Shown piece after piece: positions 49,248-64,000 of a stretch of DNA of 64,000 bases. Positions within the stretch are counted from its first letter, which is position 1, and the number at the start of each line of letters is the position of its first letter. A program made the translations under genes and the position numbers. The DNA is from Altererythrobacter sp. XM-24bin4 (GTDB lineage: Bacteria > Pseudomonadota > Alphaproteobacteria > Sphingomonadales > Sphingomonadaceae): assembly GCA_003149575.1 (NCBI GenBank), contig QCWG01000001.1, positions 1,556,334-1,620,333 on the forward strand, in the 5' to 3' direction. The notes beneath the pieces were generated by a model, which worked only from the letters and a program-made list of their open reading frames with translations, did no database searches and was not told where the DNA came from.

Positions 49248-50945
49248 TTAAAGCACCTGCACAAGACTGAGATTTAGGCGAGCGGGGCGCCTCTTAATTC
49301 CAGCAAGTTCCCGCCCGTCTGAGGCAAATTGCAAGTCGAGCAGGGCTCGCTCAGCTACAACAGCTCTCAAACCAAACCCATAGGAAAGAAGGCTCTGTTT
49401 TTCAGCTTGCACTCCTTCTCCCGCAAGTAATTTAGTCTTCGCCCAGTCTCCAAAACTGTATGCCTGGAGATTTGCGATTACCCCTGCCTCATATACATCG
49501 GGAAAATCGAGCCTTAGCTCACCTAAAAGCCCAAAGCCTCTGTCGCCTGTCAGAGACGATGGCGCATAGCCCCGTCCAAGTTGAGGTCCGCCAAAAGCTA
49601 ATTGCTCTCCTGCCAACAAACGGTCGTCACTCCATTGACCCGAAGCGCGAAACAAAAATGACATGCTCCGAGAGGGAGGAAAAAGATGGTCAAATTGCCA
49701 ATCAAATTTCAGAAACTTAGACTCAAAATCAACAACGGATGGCGTTGGATTGGACTGATCCAGAGCTCCGAACGCTGGAATTCCTCCGGTCGCCACGAAT
49801 TGCAAGGCTGTTTGTCCTAAATCTGACTGATGCTGGCCGCGTAAACCTATTTGTCCGCTGACGATTTTATCACGTGTGATGACCGTATCTAGCGCCTCTA
49901 CGCGGGTAGAAGCGAATGTTACTGCAGTTTCTAGGTAAATCGCAGTTGAACGGTTTCTGAGTAATGGCGACCTCAATCGCGCCTCGACAGAGTAGGATGA
50001 ACTGGCGACCTCAAGTTCGGCAGCCTCCCCTCCTGGACGAGCGCGTGCCGCCAGCCCGCCGAGGTAAAGAATGTTACCATCAGGTCCGACAGGAAAGGCA
50101 TAACGGCCACTTACGGCCAAGAGTTCTTCTAAAGTGTGGCCAGCAGAACTGAGCGACAAATCTAGTGCTGCCGGGTGCCCGAAAGGCGAATTAACCGTAT
50201 ACCCAACAGAATATATGACCGGCCCAATTGCATCAGATCCAGTATTGCTGACACTGAAAAATCCCTGGTTTGAAGGCCTTGATGTTGTGATGGCCATTTC
50301 GGCTGCGCCAGACTCGCTTCCTGGCCTTAAAAGTGTTTTTACCGACACACCAGGCGTGTCATTCAAAATGAGTAGTTTGCCATCAAGCTCGCGAATATTG
50401 AGAGGCTTCGCACCAACCATTTCAGAAAGAGCCGCTTTTGCAAGATTCGCGCCCAAAGCAGCGCTATCATCAACTGCGATATTGTCTAGAAAACCCTCAA
50501 CAACCTCGACCGTTACAATTCCGTCCTCGATTGTTTGGGGGGGCAGAATGACTCTCGTTAAGAGAAACCCCTCGTTCGCGTAGAGTTCCTGCAGCTGGTT
50601 CGCGTATTCTCTCAACTCTTCTAATCTGACTCGTCGACCTTCTATCGACGAAAATATTTCATTAATTTGGTCTGCAGAGAAATATGTAGCACCATTAACC
50701 CGCACTTTTGAGACTAGAAAATCCAGACTTGAAACATCTTTTGGGACGACAGACTCCTCAGGATTCCGTATCGTAACGTCGTAGTCTTCCTGAGTTGGTA
50801 AATCTGGGGGAGGCAAGCGTAACCTAGAAATATCTGCGCTAGGCGGGATGACAACCGATTGCCCAAAGGCTGGAACGCCAATCATAAGGCTAAAGGGTGC
50901 AGCCATTAAAAAAGACGATCTAGAAATTTTCTCAAAGTTAATCAT
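49248..50945 (-). CDS. TpsB/ShlB/FhaC-family outer-membrane transporter
   Basis: This 565-residue partner exports the TpsA protein across the outer membrane. A signal peptide (residues about 1-29, ends PAFGQ) is followed by a linker and two POTRA domains (about 75-150 and 152-225; VRVNGATYFSADQINEIF and ILPPQTIEDGIVTVEVVEG). A 16-strand barrel follows. The conserved L6 RGY motif is present in GGPQLGRGYAPSSL. The protein ends in a hydrophobic beta-signal LNLSLVQVL. Its ATG overlaps the cyclase stop by 4 bases, placing secretion and signalling genes in one operon. Confidence 0.93.
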   Translation of the reverse strand: MINFEKISRSSFLMAAPFSLMIGVPAFGQSVVIPPSADISRLRLPPPDLPTQEDYDVTIRNPEESVVPKDVSSLDFLVSKVRVNGATYFSADQINEIFSSIEGRRVRLEELREYANQLQELYANEGFLLTRVILPPQTIEDGIVTVEVVEGFLDNIAVDDSAALGANLAKAALSEMVGAKPLNIRELDGKLLILNDTPGVSVKTLLRPGSESGAAEMAITTSRPSNQGFFSVSNTGSDAIGPVIYSVGYTVNSPFGHPAALDLSLSSAGHTLEELLAVSGRYAFPVGPDGNILYLGGLAARARPGGEAAELEVASSSYSVEARLRSPLLRNRSTAIYLETAVTFASTRVEALDTVITRDKIVSGQIGLRGQHQSDLGQTALQFVATGGIPAFGALDQSNPTPSVVDFESKFLKFDWQFDHLFPPSRSMSFLFRASGQWSDDRLLAGEQLAFGGPQLGRGYAPSSLTGDRGFGLLGELRLDFPDVYEAGVIANLQAYSFGDWAKTKLLAGEGVQAEKQSLLSYGFGLRAVVAERALLDLQFASDGRELAGIKRRPARLNLSLVQVL

Positions 50946-52939
50946 TTACTACCCATCTTAATCCAGGCCGAAATATCCCCGCTCTGCAACCTGTTACTAT
51001 GATAAATGATCAAGGGATCCGTAGGGTATTTTCCCTGAAGATCAGAAAACCTTTGAGGAGCTGAGCTATCTCGTTGCTCCAATAAAGAAAATGCTGCCTG
51101 ATATTCCGCTTCAGCCTCTTCGTTGTGCGTTGATGGAAGAGGAGTATATAAAGTTGTATATTCAGATTTTCCTTTGAGAGCAAAATGACCGATGGTTCTG
51201 AATGCTTGATCTTTTGCTTGATCGACCACCGACTGAGTACAGCATATCCTAGTGCCGAAGTATTTGTTGATCCCTTCAGTTCTCGCAGCTGTGTTTACGG
51301 TATCGCCAAGAGCCGTGAAATCCATCCTCTGTGAAGAACCGAAGTTACCAACCACTGCTGGGCCGGCATGAAGACCGATCCTAGTTACGCCAAGAGGGAT
51401 ACCTTTATTATTACACTCCTCACGATACTTTTCTGCGTAAGAATCCAACTCAAGTGCAGCCTGAACCGCAGCTGCAGCATGGTCAGGTTGCTCAATGGGT
51501 GCATTGAAGATCGCCATAATGGCATCTCCAATAAACTTATCGATTGTACCCCCATGCCGTAGAATAATTTCGCAGGCCCCATCTAGATATTGATTAAGAA
51601 CATCTGACAAATCCTCGGGCGAAAGAAGTTCAGACATCGTCGTGAAATCCGCAACATCGGTAAACAAGAAAGTGGTATCTCGTTTTTCTCCGCTTATTGC
51701 GGCTGCACTGGGATCTTCCGCAATTCGATCAACCACGGCCGGTGATACATAACGCGAAAATGTTGACTGAATGTATTGGCGCTGCATTCTTTCGGCGCGT
51801 CCAATTACGATATCCATCATCCACACAGATAAAAGAAGAGCAAGAGACGGAGGCAAAATAGGCCACATGCCAATCCCGTAGCCATAGCCAATAATGCAAA
51901 GCACCCAATAGCCGGCCAGTACCGCAATTGATAAAGATAAATTGAAGACCAGACCTTTGCGAAGTTGGCTAATCAGCACACCCAGAGCCGTGAATGCAAT
52001 AACAACAAGCAGTGTAAACCCTATTGAGGACTTCGGCTCAGGCATGCCTGACAGCAAGCTGTCAATAGCATGGGCTTGTATAAGTACACCGGGCATAAAC
52101 CCGCGATTTCCATCGTCTATAATCGAGAGTGGCGTTGAATGACGGTCGGTGATGGATAGAATAGCCCCTATGAGAACTATTTTTTCTTCGAATAGTTCGT
52201 CGGGCAAGTAGGTGACGTAGTTGGCTGATATTACCGGAAAAGGCTCTTGGCCTTCTGCTGATACTGGACGCCATGAAATCTCACGAGGTGTTTCGAGCAA
52301 AGGGACCCCTTGCGAGTTAGCAATTTTAGCGGCGAAGCTTGGCGGATAATCATCGTTATAAATAAGTTCTCCATCGGAAAAAATTCCACCCGTGTTAATT
52401 CGACGAACAAGAGAGTCAAAAGGATCAGATAAGAGCCTGCTTTCCACTCTTTTGTCAGCCGGAATGAAGGCCCTCATGTAATTAAGCTGATCTTCAGTTA
52501 CGAACGCGGGATCTGCTGTATAACTAAAATATAAAGGTGTCTCAGACCGGCGAATTACCTCAAAAAGTTGAATATCTTTAGATTCCTCGCTGGCTTGATC
52601 GATAAGGACATCCACTACAATCGCCGAGGCCCCTGCGGAATCTATGCGCTCGATCAAATCGGCGATGAATGCTCTATCAATGGGTGAACGGTAAGAAAAT
52701 TGAGCTAACGTATCCTCATCAAGTGCCACCACAATAATGTCATCGGATGGCTCTTTCGGCACTTCCATCGCCGCAACCCGAATATCGGCAAGTTTCTTCT
52801 CAAGATTATCCAGTGGTGCAAGGGTTTGTACTGCAACAAAAGCAATGATTGCTGACAGAAGGGCAACAAGGGTAATCCAAAGAGCCGACCGCGTAGGTTT
52901 ATTTAATACAATCGAAGACCAACTTGCGGGAAGCCTCAT
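50942..52939 (-). CDS. CHASE2-domain adenylate/guanylate cyclase (class III)
   Basis: This 665-residue membrane cyclase has an N-terminal helix (about 17-38) and an extracytoplasmic CHASE2 sensor domain (about 45-320, with VVALDEDTL and DRAFIADLIERIDSAGA). Three transmembrane helices (about 325-395) precede the class III catalytic domain (about 415-600). Metal-binding Asp residues lie in FLFTDVADFT and GDAIMAIF. The base-contacting Lys is in TIDKFIGD and the transition-state Asn/Arg in TALGDTVNTAARTEG. A full catalytic set is present, and the Lys/Asp pattern favours cAMP. The strong GGAG Shine-Dalgarno lies before ATG 52939. CHASE2 senses unknown periplasmic signals. Confidence 0.93.
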   Translation of the reverse strand: MRLPASWSSIVLNKPTRSALWITLVALLSAIIAFVAVQTLAPLDNLEKKLADIRVAAMEVPKEPSDDIIVVALDEDTLAQFSYRSPIDRAFIADLIERIDSAGASAIVVDVLIDQASEESKDIQLFEVIRRSETPLYFSYTADPAFVTEDQLNYMRAFIPADKRVESRLLSDPFDSLVRRINTGGIFSDGELIYNDDYPPSFAAKIANSQGVPLLETPREISWRPVSAEGQEPFPVISANYVTYLPDELFEEKIVLIGAILSITDRHSTPLSIIDDGNRGFMPGVLIQAHAIDSLLSGMPEPKSSIGFTLLVVIAFTALGVLISQLRKGLVFNLSLSIAVLAGYWVLCIIGYGYGIGMWPILPPSLALLLSVWMMDIVIGRAERMQRQYIQSTFSRYVSPAVVDRIAEDPSAAAISGEKRDTTFLFTDVADFTTMSELLSPEDLSDVLNQYLDGACEIILRHGGTIDKFIGDAIMAIFNAPIEQPDHAAAAVQAALELDSYAEKYREECNNKGIPLGVTRIGLHAGPAVVGNFGSSQRMDFTALGDTVNTAARTEGINKYFGTRICCTQSVVDQAKDQAFRTIGHFALKGKSEYTTLYTPLPSTHNEEAEAEYQAAFSLLEQRDSSAPQRFSDLQGKYPTDPLIIYHSNRLQSGDISAWIKMGSK

Positions 52940-52947
52940 TTACTCCT

Positions 52948-53658
52948 CTACTCCACCGTCTCATTGGATAAGGATGCCAGCAGTGCGTCGACCTGTTGAA
53001 TACACCCTTTCTCTATCATCCAAGCAGCAAGAAACGTTGGTTCGTCCAGCAGTGGAGGAACTAGATGCACACGAATACTATATTCCAAATCCCTGTCCTC
53101 AATCAGGAAGGCCTTGGTCAAGTCTATGTCGCTTACCTTAGTGATGGCGACAGTATCTTGTCCGGGTTTAAATTGAAACGCAGCCTTCCAAGATCGGTCA
53201 AGTGGAGACACAACAAAACTTTGTTCTGAAACATCAGATGGCCGCCACCAACCAATTGGGGCCCCTTCTACGAGACACCGTTCCCCTGGTCGAGTTATAT
53301 CAATCAGCCAAGGTGATGGTATCGGATCTGCATCTGAACCAGACCGAACAGCTCCAACACGATTTGCACGGTCATTGCGGGTGGCAATTAAAGCTGAAAG
53401 GGCGCGGCTAGCATTTTGACCGGCGGCTGCCTGAAGTCTTACCGGGCCATTATGAGGACCCCTAAGCCTAATTACACCGCCGTCGGTCCCCACAACCACT
53501 AGCTTACCTCCTGGTGGTAGTGAGACTTGACGGTCTGCGCTGATCCGGCTTCCAACACTTATATCTACGCCTCTGACCTCAACAACAATTAGGCTCTGAG
53601 CATATGTCGGAACCGTTAACCCGATTACCAAAATGAAACTGATGAGCGCGCGGATCAC
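52948..53658 (-). CDS. periplasmic FecR-like protein, unknown function
   Basis: This 236-residue protein starts with GTG at 53658, overlapping the CHAT gene stop by 4 bases. It has a signal peptide (residues 1-20, ends PTYAQ). The next 70 residues (VGSRISADRQVSLPPGG, LVVVGTDGGVIRLRGP) resemble the beta-rich FecR-type domain. The remaining C-terminal half has no clear family and contains two cysteines (CLVEGAP and KGCIQQ) that could form a disulfide. It lies between the protease and cyclase genes, so it may be a sensor or inhibitor in the same circuit; that is inference. Confidence 0.7.
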   Translation of the reverse strand: MIRALISFILVIGLTVPTYAQSLIVVEVRGVDISVGSRISADRQVSLPPGGKLVVVGTDGGVIRLRGPHNGPVRLQAAAGQNASRALSALIATRNDRANRVGAVRSGSDADPIPSPWLIDITRPGERCLVEGAPIGWWRPSDVSEQSFVVSPLDRSWKAAFQFKPGQDTVAITKVSDIDLTKAFLIEDRDLEYSIRVHLVPPLLDEPTFLAAWMIEKGCIQQVDALLASLSNETVE

Positions 53659-56225
53659 AATCTTGACCCCGAGCTAAAGACAGTCTCGGCACCACTTCCC
53701 ACGAAAGAAAATGCTCCCCAGAAGAAGGGGTGTGCCGTCTCTTCATTGGAAATTGCCTCAACCTGAGCGCGCTGAAGTGCCTGATCGGTCGATAGACCCC
53801 TTTCGTCGCCTATATTTCCGAAAAGATTTTTCATTAAGGTAGCAGTGGCTACAGAGGGAACTTGCCAATGGGTAACAAGCATACTGCGCGCGCCTGCTAT
53901 AAAGAAACTTTCAGCCAGACCAGAAAGCGATTCCCCTTTTTGGACAGCCGCGTCACTGCTGGTTGCAGTATTGCAAGCCGATAACACCACTAAATTCGCT
54001 GAAATCCTGAGGGCGGCAATTTCACTGGCATCAAGAAAACCATCTTCTGTTCTTGAAAGTGCCATCTCTCCTGGACGAGCTAGCGCTATGCCTGGCTCGC
54101 GTTGACAAGCCACCTCTCCTGGCATCACTGCGTGAGTTGCGACGTAGATAATATTATACTGGTTCAGAGCGTCAGTGCGAAAGACTTCTTCTTTAGCTGC
54201 TCGGTCAGAAAACACATCAGCATCTTCAATCCCTAAAGAAGCAATAACTGAGTTCACTTCGTCGATTGTGTCGGGCAGTTCTTCGAGGCTATCAAACCGG
54301 CTTAGTATCGCAAGGCCTTCGGGATTACAAATTGGATCCTCTGACGTGGGTAGCGTTTGAATGTCAGATACAAACTTAGGATTAGCTACACCCAAAAACG
54401 ATCTTGGGGGAGCCCTCACAGTTCTTGTGGATCTTAAATTTATAAAACTAACTAACGACGGAGCATGTGTAACCGACATTCGATTAACTAGCCAGCTCGC
54501 CTCTGTGTAATCTGCGCTCAGGGGTAAGCGGGTTACTAAAGTGCCAAACGGTAGATCGCTCAATGGGCCATTGGGTATCACAATTAAACGCCCCAACTTG
54601 TTAAACTCATCAGCAACAGCCCCAAAAAGCGTCTGATAAAGGAAATGAGATTCATCAAGATTAAATTCGTTTACTGATCCACCCTCTATTTCGAGACCCT
54701 GACGCAATTCGCGAACCATTTGATCAAGCTTGTCATTACCAGCTTCTATCGGCGCAATGTGCACTCTATCTCGCGTAATAAGCTGCAGGAAGGATGAATC
54801 TTGCCCTATCAGAAAGCTAGCAAGCGCTTCATCAGGTGCTAATGCACCCCGAACAACATTTAGGTCGGGCAGCTCACTACCGTCAAAGCGTTGGTAATCA
54901 GGATATTCCTGATTTAGGATATCGCGAATCCCGGACACCTTATCAGACTGTATCTGCAACTGAGAGAGTAAAAACTCTATCAGGCGATCATCACGGTCTC
55001 CGGTAACTTTAGCTCGCTCTACACCTAATTTTCCATTAATTTCTGCTTGCAATAATAAGCTCTGCTTAAGGCTATCAATCAGGTCAGCAAGGACTGGATC
55101 GTCATCGACAAACTGCATAGACGCAAGATTAATCACATCGTCTCGCCCTGGAACAAAGGCAATTTGGAAGGCATCATAAAGCTCAGTCATTAAACCAAGC
55201 CTATCTTCCTCGCTTTCCAAGAACTGCTCTTCATCAAGAACAGCAGAAGCAAAAGGGACTAGATCATCTACCCGAAGTGCTACTGAACCGGGCGGCATAT
55301 TTTTTGCAATTTCTACAGCTCTACGAAAGGCTATGATCGAGTTAACGTTCATTGCTTCGCGCTGATATGCGCGCCCCTGAGCAAGGAGCAAACGAATCAT
55401 TCCCGGCCCGTCCCCTTGGACCGATCGTCTAATATCAATCGCTTTCTTAAAAAAAGTATCCGCAGCTGATAAGCGTCCTAAAGCAGATGATGCTTCACCC
55501 AAAATAGCAAGTATCTCTGATCGCCATATGGGGGGTTTTTGAGCTGCTGAATTGAACTCAAAAAGAGCTTCGCCTGCCTTGGCATAAGCAGTTACAGGAT
55601 CGTCCATTCGCAAAAGAATGGCAGCTTCACGAGCTAACGAAAGTGCAAGCTCAGGCTGAACGCCAACCCGCGCCTCTTCCTCCGTTTGGAAAAGCGACAA
55701 CAAGGCTTGCTGATCATCACTACCAATAATTTCTCTCCACCTGGAACTGGCATCTTGCGCAAAACGGTTGGCGACCGAATAATCGCCTTGAAGCATAGCA
55801 ATGGTCGCTTGGTAACCGGCAAATCTGGCTCTATCAGTAGGGCGAGGCGATCTATCAATAATTGGTCCAGCTCGACGGACGATCGCGTCAGCACCTTCGA
55901 AATCTTCCTGATATGCGAGCACCATTGCAAGATCCAAAAGCAAGGCCGCTGTCGTAAAATCTGAATCACCGAACAACCTAGATTGAACCGCTAATGCGGC
56001 CTCAAGGCGTTCTTGGGCCGCAGAAAAATCAAGTTTTTCACTGGCTTCACGTGCAGCATTCCAGTCAGTCTCAATAGAGATAAGTTCAGATGTGCTTTCT
56101 GTACTATCTGCCTCCGGCGTTGAGCCCTCTGATTTAATCTCCGCTGAAGATGGTCGGGCGCCAGAGACTAACGGATCGGCTGCCGCAGGTGCGGCAGCCA
56201 AAAGTAAAATAAGGCTCAAAAACAT
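53655..56225 (-). CDS. secreted TPR-CHAT caspase-like protease
   Basis: A signal-peptide start at ATG 56225 (MFLSLILLLAAAPAAADP) gives 856 residues; the longer reading to 56306 adds 27 non-signal residues. TPR-like helical repeats occupy about 60-420, including LAQGRAYQREAMN and AKAGEALFEFNSAAQ. A linker precedes the CHAT domain at about residues 570-855. The caspase-type dyad is intact: His698 in YVATHAVMPGE and Cys751 in VVLSACNTA, followed by AGARSMLVTHWQVP. CHAT proteases are usually cytoplasmic, so the export signal is notable. It is the first gene of the five-gene operon. Confidence 0.88.
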   Translation of the reverse strand: MFLSLILLLAAAPAAADPLVSGARPSSAEIKSEGSTPEADSTESTSELISIETDWNAAREASEKLDFSAAQERLEAALAVQSRLFGDSDFTTAALLLDLAMVLAYQEDFEGADAIVRRAGPIIDRSPRPTDRARFAGYQATIAMLQGDYSVANRFAQDASSRWREIIGSDDQQALLSLFQTEEEARVGVQPELALSLAREAAILLRMDDPVTAYAKAGEALFEFNSAAQKPPIWRSEILAILGEASSALGRLSAADTFFKKAIDIRRSVQGDGPGMIRLLLAQGRAYQREAMNVNSIIAFRRAVEIAKNMPPGSVALRVDDLVPFASAVLDEEQFLESEEDRLGLMTELYDAFQIAFVPGRDDVINLASMQFVDDDPVLADLIDSLKQSLLLQAEINGKLGVERAKVTGDRDDRLIEFLLSQLQIQSDKVSGIRDILNQEYPDYQRFDGSELPDLNVVRGALAPDEALASFLIGQDSSFLQLITRDRVHIAPIEAGNDKLDQMVRELRQGLEIEGGSVNEFNLDESHFLYQTLFGAVADEFNKLGRLIVIPNGPLSDLPFGTLVTRLPLSADYTEASWLVNRMSVTHAPSLVSFINLRSTRTVRAPPRSFLGVANPKFVSDIQTLPTSEDPICNPEGLAILSRFDSLEELPDTIDEVNSVIASLGIEDADVFSDRAAKEEVFRTDALNQYNIIYVATHAVMPGEVACQREPGIALARPGEMALSRTEDGFLDASEIAALRISANLVVLSACNTATSSDAAVQKGESLSGLAESFFIAGARSMLVTHWQVPSVATATLMKNLFGNIGDERGLSTDQALQRAQVEAISNEETAHPFFWGAFSFVGSGAETVFSSGSRL

Positions 56226-56371
56226 GTTGCTAAATGTCTGCAGCAAGTGGTCCACGACAGATACGATAGATACAATTGCCCCCTCTGACGAGTCTAATCT
56301 GAACATTTATGCAGATGACAGGTGTTGGATAATCGGCGATACCATTGTGGCTGGGAATTTAAATTAGTCCC

Positions 56372-56823: not shown

Positions 56824-56863
56824 TTAAACAGCCATATGTGTTAGCCGGACTGCAGGGGTGGGA

Positions 56864-58228
56864 ATGACGAGTCGGTTGAGAACTTTATTGGCCCGAGTGG
56901 CGCCGCTTGCCGTTGTCCTTACGTTCGCCTTCGCACTTCCGGCTTCGTATGCGCAGAATAGTGCGACCTATGAAGGGGTTGCGACTTGTGCGGGTTCGAC
57001 TTGCCACGGCCGGGCTGTAGGCAATGGCGCCGTTGTCCGGCAAGATGAGATTGCGACCTGGCAAGATCCTTCATCACCCAGCGGGGCGCATAGCCGGGCC
57101 TATGCATCGCTTGCGAGCCGGCGAGGTCAGCAGATCGCGGACAGTCTGGGATTGGGAGCCGCAACCTCTGCTCCCGATTGCTTGGGTTGCCATTCGACCT
57201 TTGCGCCGACTAGCCAACGCGGTGACCGCTTTCTCCTGGCAGATGGTGTAGGCTGCGAAAGCTGCCATGGCGCGTCGCAAGAGTGGCTTCCGCTCCACTA
57301 TGCTCGCTCGGCTACGCATGCCTCCAACGTCGCTTTGGGGCTAGTGCCTTTGGAACGCCCGCAAGTGCGCGCAAACGTCTGTCTGGATTGCCATTACGGA
57401 TCCGAAAGGACCGGTCAATTTGTAACACATTCGATGATGGCGGCAGGACATCCGCGTATTTCGTTCGAGCTCGATCTCTTCAGTGCGCTTCAGCAGCACC
57501 ACGATTTAGATAGTGACTATGTTGATCGCAAGGGGGCGTCTGATAGCGTGCGGATGTGGGCGGTCGGCCAGGCCGAGGCGGTGCGTCGCGCAACCAACCT
57601 TTTCGCGAAGCCAGCCTTGGCGCAGCGCGGGATGTTTCCCGAATTCTACTTCTACGATTGCCATTCGTGCCATCGCTCGATCCACGATGGGCCGCAGCGA
57701 AAGCTAACCTTTGAAAGCAATCCGGGGCGCCCGATACCGTTCGGCAACCCACCATTTAATGATGAGAACATCATCACGTTGTCCGCTGTTGCACGGGTGC
57801 TTGCGCCAGACGAGGCGGATCACTTCCTTGCGGCGAGCAGGGCCTTTCATCGAGCGATGGGCGAGGATCATAGCAAAGCGCTTGAAGCGGCCGTGATACT
57901 GCGCGGCCACGCATTCAACCTATCCAATGTGCTTGCGTCGCGCGAATACGCCGGATCGGACGCGTTCTCCGTGATCGCTGCGATATCCAATCGCGCGACG
58001 TCTTCGCGTTTCACGGACTATGCGGGCTCGGTTCAGGCGGTGATGGCGGTCGATACCTTGCTCAACGCCATGGTGCGCGATGGCCGGGTGACTGTCGGTG
58101 CGGCGGCTGGCATTCGCGCGAATATCAATCGCGCTTACGCGGCTGTGGCGGTGCCCAATAGCTACCGGCCGCAATCTTTCCGATCCGCGCTTGGCGAAGC
58201 GGCTCGCGCGATAGGCACGCTGCGGTAA
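56864..58228 (+). CDS. periplasmic five-haem cytochrome c, c554-like
   Basis: ATG 56864 is preceded at good distance by AGGGG; the GTG two codons upstream lacks a ribosome site. The 454-residue product has a signal peptide (1-30, ends ASYA). Five haem motifs follow: an unusual CX4CH at 42-48 (CAGSTCH), then CXXCH at 106, 131, 173 and 266. The N-terminal half therefore resembles the cytochrome c554/multihaem group, including the distal His residues in THSMMAAGHPRISFE. Residues 290-450 are helical and haem-free. It overlaps the next gene by one base (TAATG). Confidence 0.88.
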   Translation: MTSRLRTLLARVAPLAVVLTFAFALPASYAQNSATYEGVATCAGSTCHGRAVGNGAVVRQDEIATWQDPSSPSGAHSRAYASLASRRGQQIADSLGLGAATSAPDCLGCHSTFAPTSQRGDRFLLADGVGCESCHGASQEWLPLHYARSATHASNVALGLVPLERPQVRANVCLDCHYGSERTGQFVTHSMMAAGHPRISFELDLFSALQQHHDLDSDYVDRKGASDSVRMWAVGQAEAVRRATNLFAKPALAQRGMFPEFYFYDCHSCHRSIHDGPQRKLTFESNPGRPIPFGNPPFNDENIITLSAVARVLAPDEADHFLAASRAFHRAMGEDHSKALEAAVILRGHAFNLSNVLASREYAGSDAFSVIAAISNRATSSRFTDYAGSVQAVMAVDTLLNAMVRDGRVTVGAAAGIRANINRAYAAVAVPNSYRPQSFRSALGEAARAIGTLR

Positions 58229-60174
58229 TGCGGGCGAAGGCAACCAGTTCATCTCTGGCAGTGCTAGCGCTGGTGCTGACATCTTGCGGTGATGGAGGCG
58301 GTTCTTCGAGCGGCGGCTCGAGTGTTACTCCCACGCCAACCACGGCACCGTCATCGGCAGGCGCGCTCTACTCTGTGCCAGCACAAGAAGCGCTCAGCGC
58401 TGCCGAAGTAGGAACTGTGATTGCGCGGGCCGCGGCGCAGGCGAGTGCGCAGGGAGATGCGGCAACCATCGCGGTGGTCGACCGGGTCGGCAATGTACTC
58501 GGCGTATTCGCTATGCCAGGTGCGAGCGCTACCTCTGACATTCCCGATTCGCCGAATGGCAGCAATGTGGATGCGCAAGGACTTACTGTACCAGCGGCTG
58601 CTGCGGCTATCGCCAAGGCGATCACCGGTGCCTACCTTTCCAGCAACGGCAATGCTTTCTCCACCCGAACAGCCAGCATGATCGTGCAAGAACACTTCCC
58701 GCCTGCACCAAGCACGGCAGGATTGGAAAGCGGGCCACTGTTCGGAGTGCAGTTCAGTCAGCTGCCTTGTTCAGACCTGTCTGCACGCGCAAGCGACGGC
58801 TTAATCGGGCCAAAGCGCTCGCCGCTGGGCCTGGCAGCGGATCCCGGAGGCTTCCCGCTCTACAAGAACGGTGTGGTTGTGGGCGGGGTCGGCGTGATCT
58901 CAGACGGCGTATACAGCTTCGATCCTAATGTGCTTGATACCGACATAGATGCTGACGAAGCGATCGCACTGGCAGGCACAATTGGGTTTGAAGCGCCGAC
59001 AAGTATCCACGCAAACCGAATTTTCGTCGACGGGACATCGCTTCGCTATTCGGACGCAGCCTACTCTTCCTTGGCTGACGTGTCTGGAGCAAGCTTCACA
59101 GGCACTCCAGGCGCGTTGCTTGCGGTTACCGGCTATTACGATGGTGTGGCGTTACTGGCCGGATCTGCTTATGGTACAGAAACCTCAGGCATTCGCGCGG
59201 CTGGTGTGACTGAATTCGGCAATCAGGATGCCTTTGTGCTGAGCGATGGCGCCGGCACCAATCGTTTTCCCATACGAGCGGGAACAGACGGCGCGGACAT
59301 TGCCTCACCGATCAGCGCCAATGAAGCGCGTGTAATTCTGGAAGAAGCCTTCGCGATCATGAGCCGCGCGCGTGCGCAGATCCGTCAACCGCTTAATAGT
59401 AGGGCACAAGTGACGATTTCGCTGGTCGATACACGCGGCGAAGTGTTGGGTATTGTGCGTTCACCCGATGCGGCGATTTTCGGGATCGACGTCAGTTTGC
59501 AGAAGGCACGCACAGCCAATTTCATATCTGCGCCTTTTGCAGCCAATGAACTTCAAGCGGCTACGGGTGAAGTGCCAGCTTTCGTCACCGTCTTGCGCAC
59601 ATTTCTCAATGATCCGAGCGCCTTGACCGGACAATTCGCGTTTGCAGACCGCTCGGGTGGAAACCTCTCGAGGCCCTATTTTCCTGACGGCGAAGTGGGG
59701 CAGATCAGTGGCCCGCTGTCGCGCCCGATCGAACAATTCAATCCCTTCTCCACAGGCCTGCAATCGGCGCTTGTGGTCGGCAATCTGGCGCAGCATCTGG
59801 CTTTCGTTACCGGTGCAGCACCTAACGATACACCTCGATTTTGCACGTCTTTGCCGCAGGTTAGGCCCGATCATACGAGGATAGCCAACGGTATCCAGAT
59901 ATTTCCTGGTTCAGTGCCGATATATCGGGGCGGCGTGTTGGTGGGCGGGATCGGCGTGTCGGGCGATGGGATTGATCAGGACGATATGATCAGTTTCTTG
60001 GGGCTTCACAATGCTGGCCAAAGTGTTGGCGGGATTGGCAATGCCGGCCACGATATTCGCGCTGATCGCATTCTGGTTTCAGTTGGCGGTCGTAAGGTTC
60101 GGTTGCGTTATGTCAATTGCCCCTTCGCGCCGTTTCTGGACAGCGATGAAAACAATGTCTGCGAGGGGCTTTAG
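58228..60174 (+). CDS. lipoprotein with two HbpS/GlcG-like (DUF336) domains
   Basis: The 648-residue protein starts MRAKATSSSL with lipobox VLTSC (Cys20), then a Gly/Ser/Thr-rich linker. Two copies of a HbpS/GlcG-like fold follow (about 55-345 and 350-640). Each begins with a helix of the EVGTVIARAAAQA type, then a VDRxGxVLGVxxxP strand. Each ends with the loop YKNGVVVGGVGVISDG or YRGGVLVGGIGVSGDG and an (I)RADRI(L/F)V strand. The family includes haem-binding and redox-sensing proteins. Lying between two multihaem cytochromes, it may handle haem or a small substrate at the membrane surface; that is inference. Confidence 0.78.
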   Translation: MRAKATSSSLAVLALVLTSCGDGGGSSSGGSSVTPTPTTAPSSAGALYSVPAQEALSAAEVGTVIARAAAQASAQGDAATIAVVDRVGNVLGVFAMPGASATSDIPDSPNGSNVDAQGLTVPAAAAAIAKAITGAYLSSNGNAFSTRTASMIVQEHFPPAPSTAGLESGPLFGVQFSQLPCSDLSARASDGLIGPKRSPLGLAADPGGFPLYKNGVVVGGVGVISDGVYSFDPNVLDTDIDADEAIALAGTIGFEAPTSIHANRIFVDGTSLRYSDAAYSSLADVSGASFTGTPGALLAVTGYYDGVALLAGSAYGTETSGIRAAGVTEFGNQDAFVLSDGAGTNRFPIRAGTDGADIASPISANEARVILEEAFAIMSRARAQIRQPLNSRAQVTISLVDTRGEVLGIVRSPDAAIFGIDVSLQKARTANFISAPFAANELQAATGEVPAFVTVLRTFLNDPSALTGQFAFADRSGGNLSRPYFPDGEVGQISGPLSRPIEQFNPFSTGLQSALVVGNLAQHLAFVTGAAPNDTPRFCTSLPQVRPDHTRIANGIQIFPGSVPIYRGGVLVGGIGVSGDGIDQDDMISFLGLHNAGQSVGGIGNAGHDIRADRILVSVGGRKVRLRYVNCPFAPFLDSDENNVCEGL

Positions 60175-60176
60175 GC

Positions 60177-62012
60177 GTGTCGCTGTTGCTTGTTCCTCTC
60201 GCTTTCGCGTTGCAACCGCCATCGGTAACGCCGGAAGAGCAGCCAGCCGAACCTCATCCGCCGTGGGAGGCCGAACCACCACCGGTTGATCCTGAAGTGA
60301 TTGAAGGGCGCAGGCGGCCAGACTACACAGACCCGCTGCCTGACCCTGTGACACAGGATAATCCCGGGGCCGTCCGCGCACCGCCACCGCAAGCTTTCCC
60401 GACCGATGAGGTCCCGATCCCTGACCGCTGGCGTTTGATCGAAACACTGGGGCTTGTGAAGGAACGCTTCTGGGACCCCTACAACCAGAACACATACAAG
60501 GGTGATCGCCCGATCAATCCGGAGAAGGTTCCTTGGTTGCCGATTACCGGGAATGACTGGTTCCTCGTGCTGAACGGCATCAGCGACACTGTGCTGGAAC
60601 CGCGCAGCTTCCCGATCCCCGTCGGCGTGCAAACGACAGAAGACACGGACCGTATCGATATATTCGGAGACGATTTCTCGACGGTTTTCTCGCAAACCTT
60701 CATCGTCGGTGCAGCGCTGCTCAAAGGCAGCACGGCATACAAACCCCCAGATGTCGAATACCGCGTGACGTTGGCGTTCAACATGAACTACGTCGATGTG
60801 CCGGAACGCCGCGTATTGTTTGTCGAGCCATCGAAGCCCAGCCATCGCTTCGACCATTTCCTTGGCGTGCAGGAAGCTTTCTTCGACTATCACTTCCGCA
60901 ACACTTCAGACCGCTATGACTTCGACTCTGCGCGCATCGGCATTCAACCGTTCCAGTCGGATTTTCGCGGCTTCCTGTTCAACGATCAGCAGCTGGGTCT
61001 GCGCTTCTTCGGCACACGCGATAACAATCGCTTTCAATACAATCTTGGCGCGTTCTGGCGGTTGGAAAAAGACACCAATAGCGGGCTGAACTCAGTGGTT
61101 CAGCGCCCACGCGATGACTTCGTCTTCGTCGCCAATGCCTATCGTCAGGACTTCCTGATCCCCGCGCTAACCAGCCAAATTACGCTGGTTTACAATCGCA
61201 ATCGCGAAGCCGAACAAATCGAGATTGATGACAACGGTTTCCCCGTACGACCGGCTTTGCTAGGCGACTTGCGTGGGCGCAATTATGACGTGTTTTACTT
61301 GGGCTATAACGCCGATGGCCGCATCGGGCGGATCAATGTGACCGCAAGCGCCTATGGAGCTCTCGGCGAAGATCGAAACAGCTTCTTCACCAGCGAGCCT
61401 GCCGACATCCGCGCATTCTTTGCTGCTGCCGAGCTTAGCTATGACAAAGACTGGATGCGCTTCCGCTTATCTGGTGCCTATGCCAGCGGAGATGATGATC
61501 CCTTTGACAATACTGAAGGCGGCTTCGACGCGATCTTCGAGAATCCGGTTTTTGCAGGGGCCGATACGAGTTACTGGATCCGGCAGACAATCCCTTTCGC
61601 TGGCGGTGGCCGCGCGGTTTCCGTCAATGGCCGCAACGGCCTGTTGAATTCGCTGCGTTCGTCGAAAGAACAAGGCCAATCGAATTTCAACAATCCCGGA
61701 TTGGTGCTGGTCGGCGCAGGTGCGGATTTCGATCTCACTCCTGAGTTTCGAATTTTTGCCAATGCCAATCATCTATGGTTCGAAAACACCGCTACGCTTG
61801 AAGCGCTGCGCAATGAAGGCTCGATCCCCAAGAATATCGGCTGGGACCTGTCGACCGCAGCGATCTGGCGGCCCAAAGCCACGCAGAACATCGTGTTCCG
61901 ACTATCCGCCGCAGCATTGCTTGCCGAAGATGGCTTTCGCGATCTGTTCGACAGCTTGGACGGCGGCGGCGCCTATTATTCAATCCTTGCCAATGCGATA
62001 CTGACTTACTGA
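60177..62012 (+). CDS. outer-membrane beta-barrel protein of the multihaem operon
   Basis: The 611-residue product starts with GTG at 60177, two bases after the previous stop. The N-terminus MSLLLVPLAFALQPPS is a short hydrophobic signal without the usual positive charges; an upstream non-standard start cannot be excluded. A Pro/Glu-rich linker (residues 13-65) is followed by alternating amphipathic strands such as FQYNLGAFWRLEKD, ITLVYNRNREAEQI, RFRLSGAYASGDDDP and a final aromatic strand ending in ILTY. This suits a porin-like barrel. No CXXC or CXXCH is present. It overlaps the next gene by one base. Confidence 0.8.
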   Translation: MSLLLVPLAFALQPPSVTPEEQPAEPHPPWEAEPPPVDPEVIEGRRRPDYTDPLPDPVTQDNPGAVRAPPPQAFPTDEVPIPDRWRLIETLGLVKERFWDPYNQNTYKGDRPINPEKVPWLPITGNDWFLVLNGISDTVLEPRSFPIPVGVQTTEDTDRIDIFGDDFSTVFSQTFIVGAALLKGSTAYKPPDVEYRVTLAFNMNYVDVPERRVLFVEPSKPSHRFDHFLGVQEAFFDYHFRNTSDRYDFDSARIGIQPFQSDFRGFLFNDQQLGLRFFGTRDNNRFQYNLGAFWRLEKDTNSGLNSVVQRPRDDFVFVANAYRQDFLIPALTSQITLVYNRNREAEQIEIDDNGFPVRPALLGDLRGRNYDVFYLGYNADGRIGRINVTASAYGALGEDRNSFFTSEPADIRAFFAAAELSYDKDWMRFRLSGAYASGDDDPFDNTEGGFDAIFENPVFAGADTSYWIRQTIPFAGGGRAVSVNGRNGLLNSLRSSKEQGQSNFNNPGLVLVGAGADFDLTPEFRIFANANHLWFENTATLEALRNEGSIPKNIGWDLSTAAIWRPKATQNIVFRLSAAALLAEDGFRDLFDSLDGGGAYYSILANAILTY

Positions 62013-64000
62013 TGCTGGCCCTGCGTCATCTTTTTCTGCTCTTGGCAGTCGCGGCGTTTGCCGGGGTAGTGACCTACGGCCCGATCGAAGCGGCCGAAGG
62101 CGAGAAACCCATCAAACGCGATTACAGCCGCGTGACCGCGCCGCCTGCTCCCGCGCGGCAAAGCTTCGAAGAGATGATGGGAAAGTCCGAAGGATGCTTG
62201 TCGTGCCATGTCAGCACCGACGCACCGACCATGCATTTAACGCCCGCTGTCCAGCTCGGTTGCACCGATTGCCACGGGGGCGATGTGAGCGTGGTCGGAG
62301 ATCCGCAGCTGCCGCATGACCACCCGGATTATGTCGCGGCGCGCGATCTGGCGCATGTGCTGCCCAAATATCCTGAAAGCTGGCATTGGCCATCTTCCGC
62401 CAACCCCCAACGCAGTTATGCATTGCTAAACATAGAGTCGCCCGAGTTTGTCCGCTTCGTCAATCCCAGCGACTACCGGGTCGCGCGCGAAGCCTGCGGT
62501 GCTTGCCATATGGCGACGATCGAAGCGGGCGAACGTTCGATCATGGCAACGGGGGCAATGTTGTGGGGTGGGGCATCCTATAACAACGGCATTTTGCCCT
62601 ACAAGAACTACATTATCGGAGAGGCTTATACCCGCGACGGGGAACCAGCGAAGCTGGTGACACCCGGAGACCCACCAGGAGAGCTGAGCGAAGCCCAGAA
62701 GAAACGCGGCGCGCTCGCTGAACTTTATCCGCTGCCGACCTGGCATGTGATCCCGCCCGGAGATGTTTTCCGCGTGTTCGAGCGCGGTGGGCGCAATATC
62801 GCGTCACAATTCCCTGAGATCGGCTTGCCCAATCCTACGGGTCAGATCCAGCGGCTGGAAGAGCCGGGTCGGCCGGACCTCAAGCAGTCCAATCGCGGCC
62901 CGGCTACGGGGCTTCGTGTCGCGATCCCCGCGCTCAACATTCACAAGACCCGGCTCAATGATCCCTTCACCTGGTTCATGGGCACGAATGACCAGCCGGG
63001 CGATTATCGCCATTCAGGCTGCGCGAGTTGTCACGTTGTCTACGCCAATGACCGCGAGCCGCGCCATTCGCTGATCTACGCGCAATATGGCCGCGACGGA
63101 CAGACGATCACGTCTGACCCGACAATCGCGAGTAAGCTTGAAAGTGCAAACGGCCATGGCTCGCTCAAGCACCCCGGGGGCGACCACGATGACGGCGAGG
63201 CACCGAAGAAAGAGAAGGGCCATCCGCTTCAACACGTCTTCACGCGGGCGATCCCCACGGCACAGTGCATGAATTGTCACATGCACCAGCCCAATATTTT
63301 CCTTAATTCCTACCTTGGCTATACCATGTGGGACTATGAGAGTGACGCGCCTTTCATGTGGCCGGCTGAGCAGAAATATCCCACTGCCGAAGAGGTTCGC
63401 GCGGTGCTGGATCGCAATCCCGAAGGTGCCGCGCCGAAGGGTAAGTGGGCTGATCTCGATTTCCTGCGCAATGTTTATGATTTGAACCCGAAGCTGCGTG
63501 ATACGCAGTTTGCCGACTATCATGGCCACGGGTGGAATTTCCGCGCGATCTTCAAGCGTGATCGCGAAGGCAATCTGCTCGATGAGAATGACAATATCAT
63601 TGATCCTGACGATCCGGAGAAATGGCGTCGCGAGGACGAAGGCAAGTTTGTCGAGCCGGGCACCAATCCGGGCAAGGCCGTTCACCTGATGAGCATCCAT
63701 GCAGAAAAGGGCATGCAATGCGCCGATTGTCATTACGCGCAGGACAGCCACGGTAACGGATTGATCTATGGCGAAGTGGCCGATGCGATCGAGATTGGTT
63801 GCAAGGATTGCCACGGCACCGCCGATGCCTATCCCACGCTGCGGACCAGCGGACCTGCTGCACCGCCAAGGGGCAATGACCTAACGCTTTTGCGCAACCC
63901 CGATGGCCGCCGACGGTTCGAATGGACCGAAACTGAAGATGGTGAGCGCACTCTTATCCAGCGCTCGATTGTTGATCCCGCACTCGAATGGGAAGTCAGC
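62012..64000 (+). CDS. multihaem cytochrome c, 5' part (at least seven haems)
   Basis: ATG 62012 overlaps the barrel gene stop; 663 codons are open to the window edge with no stop. A signal peptide (1-28) is followed by seven CXXCH motifs with first cysteines at residues 62, 84, 162, 337, 419, 570 and 597. The motifs are CLSCH, CTDCH, CGACH, CASCH, CMNCH, CADCH and CKDCH. Histidine-rich stretches near 70-105, 385-410 and 560-580 could give distal ligands. It is a large periplasmic or surface electron carrier or reductase. I cannot name a family; octahaem-type oxidoreductases are possible. The 3' end lies outside. Confidence 0.85.
   Translation, partial: MLALRHLFLLLAVAAFAGVVTYGPIEAAEGEKPIKRDYSRVTAPPAPARQSFEEMMGKSEGCLSCHVSTDAPTMHLTPAVQLGCTDCHGGDVSVVGDPQLPHDHPDYVAARDLAHVLPKYPESWHWPSSANPQRSYALLNIESPEFVRFVNPSDYRVAREACGACHMATIEAGERSIMATGAMLWGGASYNNGILPYKNYIIGEAYTRDGEPAKLVTPGDPPGELSEAQKKRGALAELYPLPTWHVIPPGDVFRVFERGGRNIASQFPEIGLPNPTGQIQRLEEPGRPDLKQSNRGPATGLRVAIPALNIHKTRLNDPFTWFMGTNDQPGDYRHSGCASCHVVYANDREPRHSLIYAQYGRDGQTITSDPTIASKLESANGHGSLKHPGGDHDDGEAPKKEKGHPLQHVFTRAIPTAQCMNCHMHQPNIFLNSYLGYTMWDYESDAPFMWPAEQKYPTAEEVRAVLDRNPEGAAPKGKWADLDFLRNVYDLNPKLRDTQFADYHGHGWNFRAIFKRDREGNLLDENDNIIDPDDPEKWRREDEGKFVEPGTNPGKAVHLMSIHAEKGMQCADCHYAQDSHGNGLIYGEVADAIEIGCKDCHGTADAYPTLRTSGPAAPPRGNDLTLLRNPDGRRRFEWTETEDGERTLIQRSIVDPALEWEVS

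Follow-up and report, generated by a model that had tools for sequence, protein, structure and literature searches.

A two-part, co-inherited redox gene set at a multihaem cytochrome locus of Altererythrobacter sp. XM-24bin4

The stretch analysed here, called the window, comprises 64,000 nucleotides of contig QCWG01000001.1 of Altererythrobacter sp. XM-24bin4 (positions 1,556,334 to 1,620,333; G000:C1:1556334-1620333). At its end we found four forward-strand open reading frames (56858-58228, 58228-60174, 60177-62012 and 62012 onward), encoding a 5-haem cytochrome (cyt1), a protein with two HbpS-type domains (HbpS2), an outer-membrane barrel and a decahaem cytochrome (MHC). They are joined by a one-base overlap, a two-base gap and a one-base overlap, in agreement with the original prediction of four coupled genes with junctions of one or two bases. 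The four genes are real. What that prediction missed is a second half immediately beyond the end of the window, on the opposite strand and facing the cyt1-HbpS2-barrel-MHC genes, which was located in an extension, L002 (G000:C1:1612000-1631900; an L002 position is the window position minus 55666). These eight genes constitute a two-part redox gene set that is co-inherited and has fixed cofactor counts.

Gene content of the two halves

Among named genomes, 478 related stretches were returned, and conservation was followed in the 80 best of them (L023-L102), to which all tblastn counts refer. Their titles give Sphingomonadales genera or metagenome-assembled genomes, apart from two that say no more than Alphaproteobacteria and one that says no more than Proteobacteria. 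Alignments (A1-A7) are chosen subsets of loci with 53, 33, 30, 24, 22, 22 and 22 rows, from which truncated proteins were excluded by length limits.

The first gene, cyt1 (56858..58228, forward strand; 456 aa, starting at GTG 56858 or ATG 56864), encodes a cytochrome c554-like c-type cytochrome with a Sec-type N-terminus. Its five haem motifs, as originally proposed, are four CXXCH and one CX4CH (CAGSTCH), while 0.007 CXXCH are expected in the shuffled sequence, and all 69 copies among the 80 loci carry four CXXCH and one CX3-4CH.

The third gene (60177..62012, forward strand) encodes the predicted barrel of 611 aa when read from its GTG, a start that leaves the signal peptide uncharged; an in-frame CTG at 60159, 18 bases upstream, adds an Arg to it and overlaps the HbpS2 end. 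Searched by itself against solved structures, the barrel gave no match (E 1). An AlphaFold2 model built on a 53-sequence alignment has 18 strands over residues 128-610 (pLDDT 65, pTM 0.68), and its nearest folds are AlgE (Z 26, 3.0 A over 359) and the Occ/OprD channels (Z 22-25). AlgE and OprD have 18 strands. MtrB was not among the matches listed by this fold search, an absence that by itself is not proof. The model leaves most of the longest loop, L7 (aa 437-508, 72 residues), unresolved; 41 of the 72 positions of this loop are invariant, versus 77 of 235 in the strands. Since both chain ends are placed in the periplasm, the long loops would lie on the outer side.

The MHC gene (62012..64000 in the window, forward strand) ends at L002:10377, equivalent to window position 66043. 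The window thus holds the first 663 of 1343 aa and seven of ten CXXCH motifs; at least seven haems had been announced, and reading past 64000 gave ten. Ten are present in 78 of 79 copies among the 80 loci, the other having eight. They span residues 62-837, that is, ten haems over about 770 residues, an arrangement that is not wire-like, and are followed by a C-terminal LVIVD propeller. A further 16 His, not taken up by the motifs, are conserved, and two Cys (C949, C1004) also lie outside them. MHC has no lipobox, and no match to solved structures was obtained with the single sequence (E 0.1) or a profile (E 0.01).

HbpS2 (58228..60174, forward strand) is the sole lipoprotein of the operon (Cys20, lipobox LTSC) and contains no CXXCH. 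The expected HbpS-like lipoprotein is borne out as to its two domains of HbpS/GlcG type, both seen as HbpS-like stretches in Pfam, and as to the lipobox within the family; the lipobox is also present in L120 and L144-L147, but most distant copies (L115-L135) lack an evident one and several have a plain signal peptide (by eye), so HbpS2 need not be membrane-anchored. In L053 (6500-8096) about 1.6 kb separate HbpS2 from the barrel, while elsewhere the gap is a few to 270 bases. The match of these domains to haem-handling proteins (Pfam; 4nkp) raises a reading as a haem or iron uptake system, in which HbpS2 would bind or degrade haem, the barrel admit it and the cytochromes reduce iron. We consider it very improbable: HbpS2 retains one conserved His only (523), its best solved-structure matches are EfgA and PduO-type proteins, Pfam has no family for the barrel and hence no TonB-receptor match, and reducing iron by way of two decahaem cytochromes would be expensive for the cell. 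EfgA is a formaldehyde sensor.

More redox genes do follow past 64000, as extension of the sequence was meant to reveal, all on the strand opposite to MHC. A metallophosphoesterase similar to SpdA (L002:10381-11250), phosphodiesterase-like, comes first. FHAcyt (L002:11252-13012) is a decahaem cytochrome with an FHA-like domain, which scores 16.1 bits with PF00498 (gathering 20.7) and gives profile matches to the FHA structures of OdhI and GarA. Its ten haem motifs are found in 59 of 61 copies among the 80 loci (two are truncated). Exactly ten non-motif His are invariant in 38 sequences, matching the ten haems, and bis-His ligation throughout is therefore likely. The membrane protein cytb (L002:13017-13901) has five transmembrane helices (read by eye) and the marks of a dihaem b protein, two WX3HX13H motifs (W96-H100-H114 and W267-H271-H285) and an SGXXG (S137-G138-x-x-G141), whose residues are invariant except S137, at 90% or more. 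The last gene (L002:13901-16351) encodes the FAD/cyclic-nucleotide/[4Fe-4S] protein, here the FAD protein. It matches PF13247 and has 16 invariant Cys, read as four [4Fe-4S]. Two GxGxxG-type dinucleotide-binding motifs are invariant in 22 sequences, and so are the Glu/Arg pairs E422/R431 and E547/R556 of its two cyclic-nucleotide (cNMP) domains. These we take to be NAD(P)H motifs and the cNMP phosphate-binding cassette, respectively. In two genomes the FAD protein and cytb are fused (1118 and 1123 aa; L149:7350-10703 and L150:3052-6420). The fusion gene adjoins a cytochrome with nine CXXCH and one longer motif.

Co-occurrence and conservation

Among 199 genomes of the family, MHC was found in 72 (40 of 96 genera) and the barrel in the identical 72. 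The original prediction had named a generic porin living without the cytochromes as the finding that would speak against it, and had suggested searching other genomes for the gene set; in that search the barrel never occurred without an MHC gene. The FAD gene (E<=1e-100) is present in 71 of the 199, all within the same 72, and the sole miss, G022, is a 67% complete genome.

One may ask whether the two halves are independent modules that co-occur merely by lineage. They are convergent in the window genome and unlinked in many others; in 12 genomes the FAD gene and MHC share a contig at a distance of over 50 kb (read by eye). Against this, both vary jointly within six genera (g1, g29, g35, g37, g38 and g53), where some members have all the genes and others none, and in 18 of 22 loci of the class outside the family FAD-cytb-FHAcyt-HbpS2-barrel-MHC form a single run on one strand. 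Independence, the least probable of the readings considered here, is thus largely contradicted already. Of the other four loci, L116 and L136 have FAD after MHC, and L120 and L122 break off at the end of a contig. Of the 22 loci, 13 yielded a cyt1.

In the 80 loci tblastn detected the barrel in 77, HbpS2 in 73, cyt1 in 70, the phosphoesterase in 64, FHAcyt in 63, and cytb and FAD in 59 each. Misses in the first half all fall at contig ends, L077 excepted. The FAD gene is missed in 21 loci, and in 12 of these the second half must lie elsewhere or be absent because their flanks are complete. As for L077 (1-8200), it holds barrel and MHC, but neither cyt1 nor HbpS2 occurs within 10 kb of them, and P450-like and AraC-type regulator-like reading frames stand upstream instead.

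Beyond the family, the barrel profile hit 25 of 337 class genomes and 12 of 398 phylum genomes, two of the latter outside the class. Haem counts hold at this distance (L144-L147 included): ten in 23 of 23 complete MHC copies and ten in 22 of 22 FHAcyt. Identity between the window protein and distant copies falls from MHC (63%) through barrel (53%), HbpS2 (51%), FAD (50%), cytb (41%) and cyt1 (35%) to FHAcyt (29%), so the outer end appears fixed as in an enzyme or an obligate complex, and the supply end drifts. The inner half seems more widely spread, because the phylum search with cytb found FAD-cytb-FHA modules without outer genes; in L148-L150 no barrel, HbpS2 or MHC was found in the stretches examined, L148 ending soon after the module. 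The full eight-gene set also lies on pMSHV of Sphingobium herbicidovorans (L160), a plasmid typed as conjugative, and should therefore be able to travel.

A putative electron chain across the envelope

The reading we favour, at slightly under an even chance, is a cyclic-nucleotide-controlled chain from NAD(P)H to the outer membrane, at whose end a decahaem protein in the periplasm would dock onto a dedicated barrel. The four window genes would be the outer half of this envelope-spanning chain. The cytoplasmic FAD protein, with its two cNMP domains and four [4Fe-4S], would take electrons from NAD(P)H and pass them to the five-helix dihaem cytb, and from there to FHAcyt, presumably anchored in the inner membrane with its FHA-like domain in the cytoplasm. 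We infer that cyt1 comes next and delivers to MHC, and that HbpS2 serves as a binding partner. In the likeliest version, MHC would be the terminal oxidoreductase, and the small acceptor on which it acts would come in by way of the barrel.

Cyclic-nucleotide control is the natural reading of the cNMP domains on the entry protein, the phosphodiesterase-like neighbour and a nearby cyclase homologue. The phosphodiesterase-like gene adjoins the inner half and was found in just one of 26 non-family loci examined (L144). A class III nucleotide cyclase with a CHASE2 sensor (50942..52939, reverse strand) is a possible source of the nucleotide; at 32 of the 80 loci a weak homologue (25-36% identity) is found in the neighbourhood of the operon. 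The cyclase neighbour is co-directional with the operon in 27 of 27 clustered copies from relatives, a count made without the window's own locus, and reversed in the window, where the cyclase, a small gene without Pfam match and a TPR-CHAT protein stand in a row on the reverse strand (50942-56306).

MHC is probably periplasmic, a placement by default that relies on GspG, a marker of the type II secretion system. This system exports MtrC/OmcA. Of 40 operon-bearing genomes tested, 24 have GspG, compared with 14 of 40 without the operon, which is a lean and not a requirement; it was not found in 16 of the 40 operon-bearing genomes, the window's own included, and since the window genome would thus lack the system, MHC was placed in the periplasm.

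Some results weigh against this proposal. The export test covered the type II system alone, with GspG as its sole marker. The 16 spare His of MHC would permit bis-His ligation of all its ten haems, which fits electron transfer without catalysis. The mean pLDDT of the barrel model is only 65, with the loop and a long N-terminal stretch unmodelled, and its 18 strands lie within the 18-22 predicted for Pcc porins in PMC4245776, a count compatible with a conduit.

A true outer-membrane conduit, with a portion of MHC or of cyt1 running through the barrel and NAD(P)H-derived electrons passing to extracellular acceptors (humics, metal oxides, electrodes), is indeed a serious rival, though we hold it to be unlikely. 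It draws support from that strand count, from the one-base overlap of the barrel and MHC genes (62 of 77 loci among the 80), and from the combination of a porin, periplasmic multihaem cytochromes and a dihaem-b membrane protein, proposed as the PCC4 pattern in PMC5566968 (He et al. 2017). However, the nearest folds of the barrel are AlgE and OprD channels and not a cytochrome-holding barrel, MHC is large and of low haem density, no surface cytochrome lipoprotein was found in the operon, and among the long stretches of the barrel it is the outer-side loop that is best conserved. Also, MHC is strongly conserved, whereas Pcc outer-membrane cytochromes are described as very diverse in PMC4245776. 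Of the transmembrane conduit first suggested for this operon, the conserved porin-multihaem redox unit stands, and the conduit as such is unproven. Should it be one, it might define a new conduit class, widespread among aerobic sphingomonads and other alphaproteobacteria, gated by cyclic nucleotides, fed directly from NAD(P)H and not from quinol, with an 18-strand AlgE/OprD-type barrel (with its conserved outer loop) and a decahaem-propeller cytochrome as outlet; we regard such a class as distinctly unlikely.

The flow may also be inward: MHC would oxidise a donor outside the cell or in the periplasm, such as Fe(II), Mn(II) or some organic compound, and electrons would enter the inner membrane. 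PMC5566968 draws PCC4 in this direction, towards the quinone pool, and lists iron oxidisers among its carriers. The presence of a FAD/FeS protein with NAD(P)H motifs would make the outward direction downhill, and its fusion to cytb in two genomes also argues against inward flow, which we judge quite improbable.

About a third of the sampled family genomes (72 of 199) carry this costly and strongly conserved redox chain, although their hosts are usually regarded as simple aerobic heterotrophs and degraders of pollutants. As the electron-entry protein would itself bear the cyclic-nucleotide sensor, control of the chain by a signal would be directly testable.

Comparison with known systems

The closest known relative is PCC4, whose features recur here: a five-transmembrane-helix protein with two WX3HX13H and SGXXG, a PF13247 Fe-S protein, a decahaem cytochrome, a tetra- or pentahaem c554-like cytochrome and a porin. 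The WX3HX13H signature is common to the inner-membrane proteins of PCC3 and PCC4, and its four His are taken to coordinate two b haems (PMC5566968). PCC4 has multihaem cytochromes of 4, 5 and 10 haems, and this cluster of 5 (four plus one), 10 and 10. Where PCC4 carries a pentahaem protein and a porin (about 460-540 aa in PCC4-like loci), the present cluster has HbpS2, the 611-aa barrel and the decahaem-LVIVD protein. PCC3 was discarded as a match, with 20-85 haems and a porin of up to 42 transmembrane segments according to PMC5566968. An NCBIfam hit to ExtM was rejected as a family assignment, being confined to some 50 residues around two haems and far below the cut-off. PCC4 is also mentioned in PMC13264449; no description of the outer module appeared in the literature searched, a search that lay outside the PCC4 list in Figure 7 and the supplements of PMC5566968.

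Three loci from the cytb search (L158, L159 and L153), taken as PCC4 by their gene content, encode the two-WX3HX13H protein, a decahaem, a pentahaem of about 590-680 aa and a porin-like reading frame of about 460-530 aa, with a tetrahaem protein additionally in L159 and L153. Profile comparison (hhalign) gave probabilities of 100 for the cNMP/FeS proteins (414 columns), 99.6 for the decahaems, 99.2 for the inner-membrane proteins and 99.0 for cyt1 and the tetrahaem. The barrel and the porin scored 0.1, at a level where remote barrel homology can be missed, and MHC and the pentahaem 7.8 over 23 columns. As controls, cyt1 against the pentahaem reached 71 over 42 columns, so haem motifs alone can lift a score that far, and the unrelated HbpS2 stayed at 0.4. 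By this comparison, the inner part is homologous to that of the PCC4-like loci and the outer part distinct at the sequence level. In this sense, envelope electron chains appear modular, because one inner-membrane input (cNMP/FAD/FeS, dihaem b and decahaem) is joined to two outer outputs without detectable homology. In a mixed locus, L152 (2847-12972), genes of the window type (FAD-cytb-FHA decahaem and cyt1) adjoin a pentahaem/porin pair resembling that of PCC4.

Geobacter Pcc (OmbB-OmaB-OmcB) shares with this cluster a small barrel and multihaem cytochromes; periplasmic cytochromes of 5-14 haems are given for Pcc, and 18 strands and 5 or 10 haems fall within the Pcc range. Compared by description, Pcc has an outer-membrane cytochrome lipoprotein, which was not found in this operon, whereas an HbpS-type partner and electron input by way of a cNMP/FAD/FeS protein set the present cluster apart. 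MtrCAB, MtoAB and PioAB likewise combine a porin with a decahaem protein, but MtrB/MtoB/PioB have 28 predicted motifs (PMC4245776) versus the 18 strands modelled here, and MHC is a 1343-aa protein with a propeller. Finally, AlgE and the OprD/Occ channels share the overall fold of the barrel (Z about 22-26) at about 7-14% identity; unlike them, the operon barrel has a long N-terminal stretch and L7, and always comes with cytochromes.

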